Of a stretch of DNA of 5,366 nucleotides, positions 1 to 5,366 are shown piece after piece. Made by a program: the position numbers and the translations under genes. Location: positions 1-5,366 of the forward strand of contig JABIQT010000396.1 of assembly GCA_018667995.1 (NCBI GenBank), written 5' to 3'. This DNA is from Candidatus Latescibacterota bacterium (GTDB lineage Bacteria; JAAXHH01; JABIQT01). The notes below the pieces were generated by a model. The model did no database searches. It was not told the DNA's origin and saw nothing but the letters and a program-made list of their open reading frames with translations. Each line of letters opens with the position of its first letter. Positions within the stretch are counted from its first letter, which is position 1.

Positions 1-2898
1 TACAAGGTCGACCAGCGGAAGACCAACTTTCTCTTCCATATTCTTGTAAGATCTGTAGGCGAGTTCGCCGTTGGTCACACTGGCGAGCTTGAGAATGGCA
101 TTGCAGGTCTCGATATCCTCATCTATAGAGGGATAGGTATTATCGTCCCACGTCTGAGTCGGACCATTCTGTACCATCTCATCGTAGAAATCGTCCACAG
201 CGTATTTGGTGCCATGAGCGCCTATTCCGTTTTCACGTACCAAGGGACCTAGAGAGATATACTGGTTGTAGAGATTCTTGTAGTCTCTATGGATTACCTT
301 AAGCCCCGGCATGGTCTTCCCGGGGATTGCTTCAATCTCACCGTCAATCCAGTTCTTGATCTCAGGCTGGGCGATCTCAGCGGGGGTATCATGGGCAAGA
401 GGGGTGGCTACCACATCAGGCGCGCCATCAGGAAAGTGCTTTTCAGATAGCTCGGAGAACTTCTTGGCGATCTGCTTGAAGATATCCCAGTCACTCTTCG
501 ATTCCCAGCATGGTGGGACAGCCTCGGAAAGAGGATGGATGAAACTGTGCATATCGGTGGAGTTTAGATCGGACTTCTCATACCAGGTGGCTGCCGGGAG
601 CACAATGTCGGAGTAGAGCGCCGACGTGTCCATTCGGAAGTTCAGGTCAACCACCAGATCCATCTTGCCCTGGGGCGCCTTCTCATGCCAGGTGACATCG
701 TGGACCTCGTCACGGGCAAAGCCTTCGTCAGCAATCGTGTTGGTATGGGTACCGAGATAGTGCTTCAGAAAGTACTCATGGCCCTTCGAGCTGGACATCA
801 GGGCGTTACCACGCCAGATGTACCAGACTCGTGGCCAGTTTTCAGGAGCATCCGGATCCTCTACGGAGAACTTCAGGTCTTTACGTTTGAGTTGCTCTAC
901 AATGTCGCCGACGATCACTGATTCATCGTTGGAGCCGGTCGATGCGGCAGTATCTCGAACCAGATCTATGGGGTTCTTGTCGAACTGAGGATAGAATGGC
1001 ATCCAGCCGTTTCGAACAGACTGTACCTGGACATCCATCGTATGACCGGTCGCGATGGAACCTTCAGGTTGATTCTCGGGAACCGTATGGTAATCGATGA
1101 AAGACTTCTCATAGCGCCACTGATCTGTGTTCACATAATGCCAGCTTGGCGCATTCTGCTGACGCGACGGTGGGTACCAATCCTTTGCGAAAGCGATGGC
1201 ACCCCACGACTCACCTGGAGCCAGCTTTTCCTGACCAACGTAATGAGCAAGGCCACCACCGTTGACGCCGATACATCCACAGAACATGAGGGCATGCATA
1301 CCGGCTCTGTACATCAGGTTTCCGTGGTACCAGTGATTGATACCGGCACCGATGATGATGGTACACTTGCCGTCCGTGTGCTCAGCCGTTGTTGCCCATT
1401 CGCGAGCAAATCTGATCAGGTTGTCGCGGGACAGGCCCGTGTACTTCTCGGACCAGGCCGGCGAATAGGGCTGGTCCGGATCATCGTAACTTGTCGGATA
1501 ATCTCCGGACAGCCCACGATCCACACCGTATTGGGCCATCAAAACATCGTAGACGGTTGCAACCGTAACCTCTCCATCCGCCGTCTTCAACTTCTTGACC
1601 GGAACTCCTCGAACCGTCTCGCGGCCCTCTCCGAAGTCGTCGAACTTAACCTGGACCTCGGCATCATTCTCAGTCAGAAATGTCAGAATGGGATCAATCT
1701 CGCTACCGTCGACACCATCCTTCAACTGGAGATTCCATTTACCTTTTTCCTCTCCATGCCGGTGGCCCATGGATCCCATAGGCATTTTCGGTTTGCCTTC
1801 TTTAGCGTCCCACATCAGGAACTTCCACTCCCCGTTCTCCTGGTCGGCGTAGGAAGACATGCGTCCGGCCCGCAACATTTGCCCCAGTTCATACCGGTCC
1901 CCATCTTCCTTCAACTCTACAAGAAGCGGCGCATCGGTGTACTGTTTGGTGTAGTCGATGAAATAAGGTACTGCGCGTTCGTGATGAAATTCCTTGAGAA
2001 TCACGTGGTTGGCTGCCATCCACCACGCGCCATCCTGCCCCGCATTGATAGACATCCATTCATCGGCATATTTGGCGACCTGATTGAAATCCGGTGCAAA
2101 GACATACATCTTGGTGCCATTGTGCCGGGCCTCGGCGGCGAAATGGCAGTCAGGGGTCCGTGTCATGTTGAGATTGGAACCCATCACCGCTAACATTTTG
2201 GCGTTGTACCAGTCTGCAGACTCCTGAACATCAGTCTGCTCTCCCCATGCTTCTGGAGAGGCGGTTGGTAGATCGCAGTACCAGTCGTAGAATGAAAGAG
2301 AGAGACCACCCATGAGTTGAAGCATACGAGCCCCGCCGGCGTAGCTGATCATAGACATAGCGGGGATCGGCGAGAAACCGGCTATTCTGTCTGGCCCGTG
2401 CTCTTTAATTGTATGAACATTTGCGGCGGCCATCATTTCCAGAACTGTGTCCCAGTCTGTTCGCCTGAATCCACCTTTTCCACGTGCTTTCTGCCAGCGA
2501 CTTCTCGATTCTGGGTTCATTACCAAGGAGTTCCAGGCCTCCACCGGATCGTCATATTGTCGGCGGGCATCCACCCAGAGATCCAGCAACGCGCCACGAG
2601 CATAGGGATATTTAACCCTCAACGGACTATACAAATACCAGGAATAGGATATCCCACGCTGGCAGCCACGTGGTTCGTATGGGGGCAGCCCAGGCTCTAA
2701 CAAGGGGTAATCAAGACCTTGCATCTCCCATGTGACGATCCCGTCTTTGACGTGGATATTCCAGGTACATCCGCCGGTGCAGTTTACACCGTGTGTACTC
2801 CGCACGATTTTATCGTATTGCCAGCGATTGCGGTAGAACTGCTCCCACGACCGTTGTTGAGGCGCTACGTCATCTCGAATCCACGACTTGATACTCAT
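1..2898 (-). CDS. narG: NarG/NxrA-type molybdopterin oxidoreductase alpha subunit (nitrate reductase or nitrite oxidoreductase), 3' end outside window
   Basis: Catalytic subunit of a membrane-bound, cytoplasm-facing nitrate reductase or the homologous nitrite oxidoreductase, interconverting nitrate and nitrite at a bis-MGD molybdenum centre. The frame is open from ATG 2898 to the window edge: 966 codons, no internal stop. The family is about 1150-1250 residues, so roughly the last 200-280 residues are missing. H36, C40, C44 and C79 (HGVNCTGGC, then PRGC) have the spacing of the E. coli NarG FS0 cluster ligands H49/C53/C57/C92. D209 in YDWYCD aligns with the molybdenum ligand Asp222 at the same offset of 13. 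Other NarG blocks are [23 protein letters not shown] (about 517-525), FCGCIG (539-544), [12 protein letters not shown] and [19 protein letters not shown] (772-790). The N-terminus lacks a twin-arginine or Sec signal, unlike periplasmic Nxr. A good Shine-Dalgarno supports the start. It lies 105 bases after the cytochrome c gene, probably in the same operon. The family call is firm; direction of catalysis is not decided. Confidence 0.95.
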
Positions 2899-3003: not shown

Positions 3004-3882
3004 TTAAGCTTTATCCTTCGTCTTGCTGTATGTAGCGTCATATAGGGGTCGACGTACAGCCTTGAAGCGCTTGCCCCAAAGGCGATCAAATATCACCAGA
3101 AGGACGCCCGCCCCGAATATCCCTGATAGCACGAAGTTAATCGTTGCCGAACTACTTTCGGGAAGATCCTGCTCTGTTTCCTGCTTCATGAATGCTATCA
3201 GAGGGAGAATCTCTTCCTCATCGATAGGATGATCCAAAAACAAAGGACTCATGGTGAGGCTTGGAGGCGCCACCAACCAGGCAGCCAACCCCTTACGGCC
3301 CTCAAGTCGAGCATAGGCACGGGTAAGATTTAGTCCTAGTTTGCCGCCGCCGAGACTACCGACACTGTTAACATGATGGCAACCGATGCAGGCGGGTCCA
3401 CCGTTCTTCAACGGCGTGGATCCCATGAAGAGTGCACGACCCTCTTCTACGTCCTCGGGTAACAATGCTCTATCGCTGACTTGCACACCCGCAAATGCCG
3501 ACTTTTCAAGTAACGACTCTGCGTCAATCAAATCGAGAAGCGCGTTTGCAAGTTCACGTGTAATACCAGGACTTCTCGTCATGACCGCGCCCCGGGCTTC
3601 TTTCTGGAGCTTCGCAGCATAGGGATCGCCGCTCCCCAACACGCCTTCCGGGTCCAGCATCCAGTCCACAAGCCATGCTCGATCCTGCCGGTCGCTGACG
3701 TCTTTCAGATCAGGACCAGTCAGTCTTCCACCGCCAATGGTATGGCAGCTCATACAATTCTGTCTGTAAAAGGCTTCCGGCACTTGGGCACTGGCCAAGC
3801 CGGATCCGATTAGAATCACCGAAACCGCAGCCAGGGCTGTGAGCGTCTTAATGTGATTTGTAGCGGAATTCATAGTCGCCAT
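3004..3882 (-). CDS. Membrane-anchored periplasmic diheme cytochrome c (NarC-like)
   Basis: A 292-residue c-type cytochrome likely to shuttle electrons between the NarG-containing complex and the periplasmic or membrane respiratory chain. Residues 1-32 form a Sec signal peptide: K12, a hydrophobic stretch at 14-30, and cleavage probably after ASA at 30-32. Two class I heme domains follow: CMSCH at 43-47 with M101 as a likely sixth ligand, and CIGCH at 165-169 with M211 (TMSP) as a likely sixth ligand. The segment at about 247-265 is a single transmembrane helix followed by a basic tail (KRFKAVRR), giving both hemes outside and the C-terminus in the cytoplasm. The start at 3882 has a weak GAG ribosome site 6 bases upstream; a second in-frame ATG at 3873 would shorten the n-region by three residues. 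A narG partner directly downstream matches the narC-narG order known in Thermus and cytochrome genes heading some nxr clusters. A near-consensus sigma-54 promoter lies 55 bases upstream of the start. The symbol is left blank because orthology to narC is inferred from layout and architecture only. Confidence 0.92.
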   Translation of the reverse strand: MATMNSATNHIKTLTALAAVSVILIGSGLASAQVPEAFYRQNCMSCHTIGGGRLTGPDLKDVSDRQDRAWLVDWMLDPEGVLGSGDPYAAKLQKEARGAVMTRSPGITRELANALLDLIDAESLLEKSAFAGVQVSDRALLPEDVEEGRALFMGSTPLKNGGPACIGCHHVNSVGSLGGGKLGLNLTRAYARLEGRKGLAAWLVAPPSLTMSPLFLDHPIDEEEILPLIAFMKQETEQDLPESSSATINFVLSGIFGAGVLLVIFDRLWGKRFKAVRRPLYDATYSKTKDKA

Positions 3883-3947
3883 GGTCGTCTCAACGGAATA
3901 GGGTGGTCGGATATCTTCTTTAAGAGATTTATCTGACCTTTACCTAA

Positions 3948-3963
3948 TACAAAAGACGTGCCA
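3948..3963 (-). promoter_or_regulatory. Sigma-54 (RpoN) -24/-12 promoter of the cytochrome c-narG operon
   Basis: The minus strand reads TGGCAC (3963-3958), five bases, then TTGTA (3952-3948). This fits the RpoN consensus TGGCAC-N5-TTGCW except for T in place of C in the -12 GC. The -25/-24 GG and the spacing are exact, and a C precedes the -24 box as in the consensus. The predicted transcription start is near 3937, leaving a 5' leader of about 55 bases before the ATG at 3882. The upstream neighbour encodes an enhancer-binding sigma-54 activator, which makes a chance match less likely. The -12 deviation could weaken the promoter. Confidence 0.7.
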
Positions 3964-4078: not shown

Positions 4079-4154
4079 GCAACAACGCATATCGGAGTAT
4101 ACAATGTCCAACGGAGAAACACTGGAACACCTTGAGAAACTTAGGGTTAACCAG

Positions 4155-4172
4155 TGCATACGTTGGTATGCA
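4155..4172. promoter_or_regulatory. Candidate enhancer (UAS) for an NtrC-family activator
   Basis: TGCATAC-GTTG-GTATGCA is a perfect 7-base inverted repeat with a 4-base spacer, centred about 226 bases upstream of the predicted sigma-54 start. The outer TGCA...TGCA resembles the NtrC site consensus TGCAC-N7-GTGCA, with a slightly different length. It lies between the response-regulator gene and the promoter, where an upstream activating sequence belongs. The dyad is plainly visible; the identity of the binding protein is inferred. Confidence 0.5.
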
Positions 4173-4254: not shown

Positions 4255-5366
4255 TCAGTCGTCGTTTCCGAGCTTTCTATAGATAGTTCTACTGGCAATA
4301 CCCAGGAGTCCGGCTGCCACATTCTTGTCACCATTCACATGGTCCAGCGTTTGCTGTATCACACGTTTCTCGATCTCGTCAAGCGGCGTACCAATAGGAA
4401 TGATCAAGTTTCTTGATTGCTTTTCGGACTGGCTGATATGTGATGGCAGCACATCGGGAGCGATTTCGCTGGCATTACACATAACTACTGCGCGTTCAAT
4501 TACGTTTTCCAGTTCTCTGACATTACCTGGCCAATTATAGTCCGTCAACTGATCCATAGTCTCGGGGAGAATACCATCAATCTGCTTGTCATTCTTCTTG
4601 GTGTAAAGATGCAAAAAATGATGTGCGAGAAGTGGAATGTCGTCGGTTCGATCCCGAAGAGGAGGCAAGGTTAACGATATCACATTGAGCCGATAAAAAA
4701 GGTCTTCGCGGAACTGGCCGTTGGTAACAGCCGCCTGCAGATCAACGTTCGTCGCGGCAATCAGGCGCACGTCCACCTTTATAGTCTTGGTGCTTCCCAA
4801 GCGCTCGAACTCACCTTCCTGCAGTACTCTAAGCAACTTAACCTGCATGGCCATGGACATTTCACTTACTTCGTCGAGCATCAGCGTTCCCTGATGGGCC
4901 GCCTCAAAACGCCCGATACGGCGGGCAGAGGCGCTCGTAAATGCGCCTTTTTCATGTCCAAAAAGTTCGGCTTCAAGCAACGCCTCGGGAAGCGCTGCAC
5001 AGTTCACCTTCAGGAAAGCCTGATCTTTTCGCGTGCTATGGAGGTGGAGAGCGTCAGCAATTCTCTCCTTACCCGTTCCACTATCTCCTTGGATGAGAAC
5101 GGTGGCAGAGCTGGGAGCTACTTGCCGAACCGTGTCCATAATCCTTTTCATTCCGGTGTTGGTGCCGATGATCTGCTGACTGTTCTGAATAGCTTCCAGC
5201 TGCTCACGCAGGCGCTGTTTTTCCTGGCCCAGCATGCGCTTCTCGACCGCGCGCTCAACAACGCGTTCTATTGTGGCTTTTCGCGGTGGTTTGGATATGA
5301 AGTCATAGGCTCCATCTTTAATAGCTTGGACGGCCTCCTCTACAGTACCGTGCCCCGTTATGATAA
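4255..5366 (-). CDS. NtrC-family sigma-54-dependent response regulator, 5' end outside window
   Basis: Transcription activator that uses ATP hydrolysis to open sigma-54 promoters in response to a sensor kinase. The first full codon starts at 5364, and 369 residues plus TGA are visible; residue numbers count from there. Residues 1-28 are the end of the receiver domain, with the conserved Thr (T3 in ITGHG) and Lys (K25 in SKP). The phosphoacceptor Asp is beyond the window. A charged, coiled-coil-like linker covers about 28-60. The AAA+ domain has Walker A GDSGTGKE (93-100), the sigma-54 contact loop GAFTSA (140-145) in place of GAFTGA, Walker B LMLDE (161-165), a sensor I-like AATN, the arginine-finger stretch FYRLNV, PLRDR, and a sensor II-like GNVRELEN. 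A Fis-type helix-turn-helix ends the protein (about 345-366). An internal Met at 5235 is not the start, because receiver sequence continues upstream. It is the likely activator of the cytochrome c-narG promoter next door; its kinase is probably encoded upstream, outside the window. Confidence 0.95.
   Translation of the reverse strand, partial: IITGHGTVEEAVQAIKDGAYDFISKPPRKATIERVVERAVEKRMLGQEKQRLREQLEAIQNSQQIIGTNTGMKRIMDTVRQVAPSSATVLIQGDSGTGKERIADALHLHSTRKDQAFLKVNCAALPEALLEAELFGHEKGAFTSASARRIGRFEAAHQGTLMLDEVSEMSMAMQVKLLRVLQEGEFERLGSTKTIKVDVRLIAATNVDLQAAVTNGQFREDLFYRLNVISLTLPPLRDRTDDIPLLAHHFLHLYTKKNDKQIDGILPETMDQLTDYNWPGNVRELENVIERAVVMCNASEIAPDVLPSHISQSEKQSRNLIIPIGTPLDEIEKRVIQQTLDHVNGDKNVAAGLLGIASRTIYRKLGNDD

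Follow-up and report, generated by a model that had tools for sequence, protein, structure and literature searches.

The stretch of DNA analysed here, a window of 5,366 bases from a Candidatus Latescibacterota genome (G000), raises the question of which σ factor and which activator control a respiratory nitrate reductase operon. Textbook accounts usually place anaerobic nitrate respiration under σ70, FNR and NarL, and the canonical narGHJI operon of E. coli is of this type; NarL, a regulator of the LuxR type, works there together with σ70 and FNR. The original prediction placed the cytochrome c–narG operon of the window under σ54 and assigned it to the NtrC-family gene lying next to it. Our comparison of this locus with its relatives indicates that narC-narGHJI-narK is very probably driven by a σ54 promoter preceded by two enhancers in tandem (UAS), and that the cognate activator is most likely a response regulator encoded on another contig (C81). 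The features are listed in Table 1.

Table 1 Position, strand and basis of the features discussed (window coordinates unless a locus is named)
Feature	Position	Strand	Basis
σ54 −24/−12 element TGGCAC-GTCTT-TTGTA (GG-N10-GT)	3948..3963	minus	exact match, genome-wide excess, conserved position in relatives
Predicted transcription start, ~12 nt past the −12 element	3937..3938	minus	inferred from σ54 promoter geometry
UAS1, distal predicted enhancer TGCATAC-CAAC-GTATGCA, perfect 7-bp inverted repeat	4155..4172	minus	unique genome match
UAS2, proximal predicted enhancer TGTATAC-TCCG-ATATGCG	4086..4103	minus	equivalent at 139-140 in G011, G096, G120 and G237
narG, nitrate reductase alpha subunit, 966 of ~1,215 residues	1..2898	minus	TIGR01580
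NarC-like diheme cytochrome c with a membrane anchor, encoded first in the operon	3004..3882	minus	translation and Pfam
NtrC-type response regulator, probably not the activator of this promoter	4255..5364	minus	PF00158, HTH_8
C81-type response regulator, proposed activator	G000 contig C81, L161:3161-4564	minus	PF00072, PF00158, PF02954
Clade kinases with four-cysteine segment	L162:758-3079, L128:6999-8867, L065:11418-12983		

The predicted −24/−12 element TGGCACGTCTTTTGTA is indeed present, read on the minus strand from 3963 to 3948, and is the only match without a mismatch in the window. The other 16 matches have three mismatches each, and the total, 17 where shuffled sequence gives 11 on average, is barely over chance. 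In the whole 6.06-Mb genome, the pattern TGGCAC-N5-TTGYA occurs 20 times and its reversed control seven times, so that about two-thirds of the genomic sites exceed chance. Four of the 20 exact matches are on contigs that also encode σ54 activators (C41, C188, C284 and C614). The element of the window is intergenic and its TGG lies 81 bp from the ATG of the cytochrome c gene (3882). From this distance, transcription is predicted to begin near 3937, with ~55 nt of leader; positions 3937-3947 belong to the predicted start region, the element proper being 3948-3963. RpoN is encoded in G000 (a PF04552 fragment at a contig edge), and full PF04552 matches were found in G011, G001, G096 and G097. No IHF-site match was found between the enhancers and the promoter.

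The narG product was assigned as a respiratory nitrate reductase by a curated model above its cutoff (TIGR01580, 1184.8 bits vs 1084), although the protein is truncated, and it is homologous to E. coli NarG (PDB 1q16 relatives). The cytochrome c preceding it contains two CxxCH motifs (CMSCH and CIGCH) and a C-terminal hydrophobic segment, and matches Pfam Cytochrom_C. Since contig C60 (L208) carries the C-terminus of NarG followed by narH, narJ, narI and a NarK-type MFS transporter gene, the operon is most likely narC-narGHJI-narK. We infer the joins of contig C289 to C60 and to C822 from homology. G000 is a fragmented, 85% complete MAG. In the related genome G120, a kinase gene and a response regulator gene come first, then the enhancers and promoter, and these are followed by cytochrome c, narG, narH, narJ, narI and two transporters. 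Genes resembling alternative complex III come after the nar operon at L064. Just past the right edge of the window, C822 continues with a divergent PhyH-type gene, moaA and a ThiF/rhodanese (MoeB-like) gene (the latter two at L111 1629-3870); molybdenum cofactor genes are thus located near narG. An open frame of 383 codons antisense to narG (1042-2193, plus strand) appears to be a side effect of the coding strand.

Comparison of the upstream regions revealed two palindromes, UAS1 and UAS2, which were absent from the original prediction. UAS2 starts 140 bp upstream of the −24 box and UAS1 at −209, which gives a spacing of 69 bp. They are the only exact matches to the palindrome pattern in the 6.06 Mb of G000; the pattern was picked after being seen in this genome and support for its relevance comes from the other genomes. 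The one exact copy in G011, a genome of the same order, is located upstream of the homologous operon. Because the exact palindrome occurs in G000 only at this place, the system seems to serve the nar operon alone, as far as an 85%-complete genome can show. The idea of a wider palindrome regulon in G000 was abandoned, as copies with one mismatch elsewhere are about as frequent as those of the reversed control. A second palindrome pair, 67 bp apart, lies between convergent genes in G011 (contig C122, L114 6012-6096) with no −24/−12 element.

The −24/−12 element, the two palindromes and their spacing are conserved in seven genomes, G000 included; the check on conservation of the promoter element in relatives was thus passed in six further genomes. 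The distances given here were measured start to start from the −24 box. The enhancers are at −209 and −140 in G000, at −210 and −140 in the Calditrichota MAG G096 (cytochrome identity 66%, promoter TGGCATAATAGTTGAC), at −209 and −140 in G120 (49%, TGGCACAATTATTGAC), at −186 and −116 in G250 (49%, TGGCACGCAATGTGCA) and at −172 and −103 in G168 (45%, TGGCACAGTCTGTGCA). The spacing within the pair is 69 bp in G000, G120 and G168 and 70 bp in G096 and G250. G011 (73%, CGGCACGGTTTTTGTA) has one clear palindrome instead of two, at −139, and G237 (69%, TGGCATAACAATTGCC) has one at −139 and another 228 bp further upstream, at −367. In five of the seven genomes, the nearer enhancer thus starts 139-140 bp upstream of the −24 box. 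The −12 dinucleotide varies between GT, GC and GA, the last being off consensus.

When promoter and enhancers were scored jointly, with a motif and distances derived from the window, G000 reached 35, G096 and G120 32 each and G011 29, whereas the maximum among 93,566 GG-containing positions of other sequence was 27. None of the 3,000 dinucleotide shuffles made for each of G096, G120 and G011 attained the observed score. Except for one 22-bp segment over a palindrome, blastn detected no similarity among the upstream regions, which argues that the motifs have been kept by selection and not by recent shared ancestry. In about 20 homologous operons that no C81-type regulator adjoins, some of which follow an Rrf2-type gene, the palindrome pair is absent. 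Taken as a whole, the conserved −24 box and enhancer spacing strongly support the predicted control of narC-narGHJI by σ54, now with enhancers added.

The C81 regulator contains a receiver, an AAA+ domain with GAFTGA and a Fis-type HTH. In G120, G237 and G250 a regulator of its type immediately precedes the operon; in G011 (contig C25) one is found on the 3′ side of cytochrome c–narG. With the G120 regulator as the reference, identities are 62% for the C81 protein of G000, 63% for that on G011:C25 and 64% for a contig-end fragment in G096, which adjoins a full kinase gene. In G168 the search for such a regulator covered the operon neighbourhood alone. In the phylogenetic tree, the C81, G011:C25, G120, G237 and G250 proteins form one clade (support 99/97), and the regulator of the window forms a separate clade with G001:C109 and G011:C8 (support 100/99). 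The recognition helix LTRAAFQRIMRKL characterizes the C81 clade and is near-identical wherever the C-terminus is readable; in G120 it reads DLTRAAFQRIMRKL. In G000 itself the gene is unlinked from the operon, being on a separate contig of the fragmented MAG. The binding of the C81-type regulator to the enhancers is predicted from this co-occurrence and synteny. In G011 the regulator gene is frameshifted within the HTH and the adjoining narG ends at 736 residues (L065 7764-11370); these two defects, like an in-frame TAA in the gene on G011:C8, reflect either decay or assembly error.

The kinase partner of the C81 regulator has a HAMP domain (Pfam), and the clade kinases of G096, G120 and G011 share a C-x9-C-x2-C-x9-C segment before HisKA. 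This segment suggests that the kinases could sense the redox state or a metal cluster. Most of the periplasmic domain is missing from the G011 kinase. The C81 regulator and kinase genes (L161 2-5280) face, in convergent orientation, genes of alternative complex III (ActD by Pfam).

The σ54 activator gene that the original prediction placed upstream of the operon does lie there, on the same strand, its 5′ end lying beyond the contig; the N-terminal receiver continues on C822 (L111 2-379), and in G000 this gene has no kinase gene beside it. Such an arrangement is common for an activator and its target, the protein has a complete AAA+ σ54 domain and a Fis-type HTH, and in G120, G237 and G250 an activator in the equivalent position can indeed be the regulator of the operon. 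It is nevertheless unlikely that this neighbour is the cognate activator binding both palindromes. Its orthologue in G001 (contig C109, 74% identity) occurs in a genome in which a cytochrome c match is lacking, the palindrome is absent even with one mismatch allowed, and no C81-type regulator was found above 44%. Conversely, the palindromes are present in G096, where the best matches to the window regulator were only 47-49% and no orthologue was found, and in G120, where no sign of one was seen with the clade regulator as the sole query. In these three genomes the window regulator and the operon with its enhancers were thus not found together. G011 possesses both types, with the orthologue of the window regulator (72%) on C8, while the C81-type regulator adjoins narG. 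The recognition helix of the neighbour, GIASRTIYRKL, is wholly unlike the helix that co-occurs with the palindromes. In place of the GAFTGA of its two closest orthologues, the window regulator has GAFTSA; we dropped this as a sign of a nonfunctional protein, since NorR with the equivalent serine (G266S) keeps its activity (PMC2941729). The neighbour could act alongside the C81-type regulator, but its role as the dedicated activator of the nar promoter is probably wrong: phylogenetic profile, synteny and tree all favour the C81 response regulator/kinase pair, whose type the palindromes track.

Two further readings concern the DNA elements themselves. The palindromes might be sites of a separate regulator, e.g. 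a repressor, outside σ54 activation. Their function is predicted from sequence, and their distance to the −24 box, which shifts to 116 bp in G250 and 103 bp in G168, is not rigid. Two dimer sites 100-210 bp upstream are, however, the standard layout for activators of the NtrC type, and the palindromes co-occur with a specific activator clade, which makes a separate regulator very unlikely. The −24/−12 match might also be incidental or secondary to a σ70-type promoter under FNR/NarL-type or Rrf2 control, as in the E. coli paradigm. A homologous operon at L064 has a σ70-like TTGACA-N17-TATATT; in G127 an Rrf2-family gene (Pfam; L129 2080-2514) directly precedes the homologous operon (L127-L129), and apparently similar Rrf2-type genes are found before the operon in G126 and G238 (L121 and L204). 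In the window, a search of the minus strand gave no σ70-like site, and FNR-like matches are no commoner than expected by chance, in keeping with the original prediction, in which no FNR-type box was seen; in five genomes the −24 box stands at a conserved distance from conserved enhancers. We therefore consider such a σ70-type promoter extremely improbable here, with the reservation that the case for FNR-independence can be no stronger than the lack of a consensus box allows.

According to the favoured model of σ54 control by the C81-type regulator, the HAMP-containing kinase would phosphorylate the regulator, and phosphorylated dimers of this NtrC-family protein would occupy both palindromes and then oligomerise. 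The DNA would loop back over ~100-140 bp, and ATP hydrolysis would open the RNA polymerase–σ54 complex at 3963..3948. The regulator encoded in the window would then be just a neighbour. If this is true, the nar operon of these uncultured lineages would be strictly activator-dependent, i.e. off in the absence of the phosphorylated regulator. The paired TGCATAC-N4-GTATGCA sites, 69-70 bp apart and ahead of GG-N10-GC/GT, may serve as a searchable DNA signature, and the regulator clade is a test object to go with it. The locus would also illustrate clearly that proximity of a regulator gene to an operon does not make it the cognate one. Beyond this locus, we are inclined, with slightly better than even confidence, to think that a widespread, undescribed two-component system with an apparently single target runs nitrate reductase via σ54 and an enhancer pair of fixed geometry in several deep-branching phyla, possibly with redox sensing by four cysteines, and replaces FNR/NarXL there.

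NtrC-type control is known in itself, as are NarG operons and NarC cytochromes; what would be new is the application of NtrC/σ54 two-component control to a respiratory nitrate reductase. In the open-access literature searched, no paper was found that describes a narG-type operon of these groups under σ54/NtrC-type control. A published regulon prediction places many σ54 sites at a COG whose regulated members are nitrate reductases in 42% of cases; this COG is enriched in Proteobacteria and Bacilli and annotated as an uncharacterized anaerobic dehydrogenase (PMC12316311). Unlike the case of G000, neither a respiratory nitrate reductase nor a narC-narGHJI operon was found in that paper. The gene order in G120 and C60 resembles the narCGHJIKT operon of Thermus thermophilus, in which the NarC cytochrome c gene precedes narG and genes of NarK-type transporters follow narI (PMC7694296), the likeness consisting of gene order and diheme motifs. 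The Thermus operon is controlled by DnrS/DnrT, a CRP-type activator with sites at ~−43, and by DrpA/DrpB, and σ54, proposed here, is not mentioned in that work (PMC7694296).

The NarX/NarL-FNR control of E. coli narGHJI is similar to the present system in being two-component, presumably linked to nitrate or redox state, and in acting on the same enzyme type. It differs in that σ54 and an ATPase activator are predicted here and no FNR box was found in the window. The closest analogues of the proposed mechanism are the NtrB/NtrC-type systems at RpoN promoters, such as NtrC at glnA, ZraR, AtoC and NorR at norVW, which likewise combine an AAA+ σ54 activator and its kinase partner with a GG-N10-G(C/T) promoter and dyad enhancers 100-200 bp upstream. 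In contrast to these systems, the target here is a respiratory nitrate reductase operon, the clade kinases carry a PAS-like segment with four cysteines, and the TGCATAC-N4-GTATGCA motif together with its recognition helix appears to mark a distinct clade of regulators.
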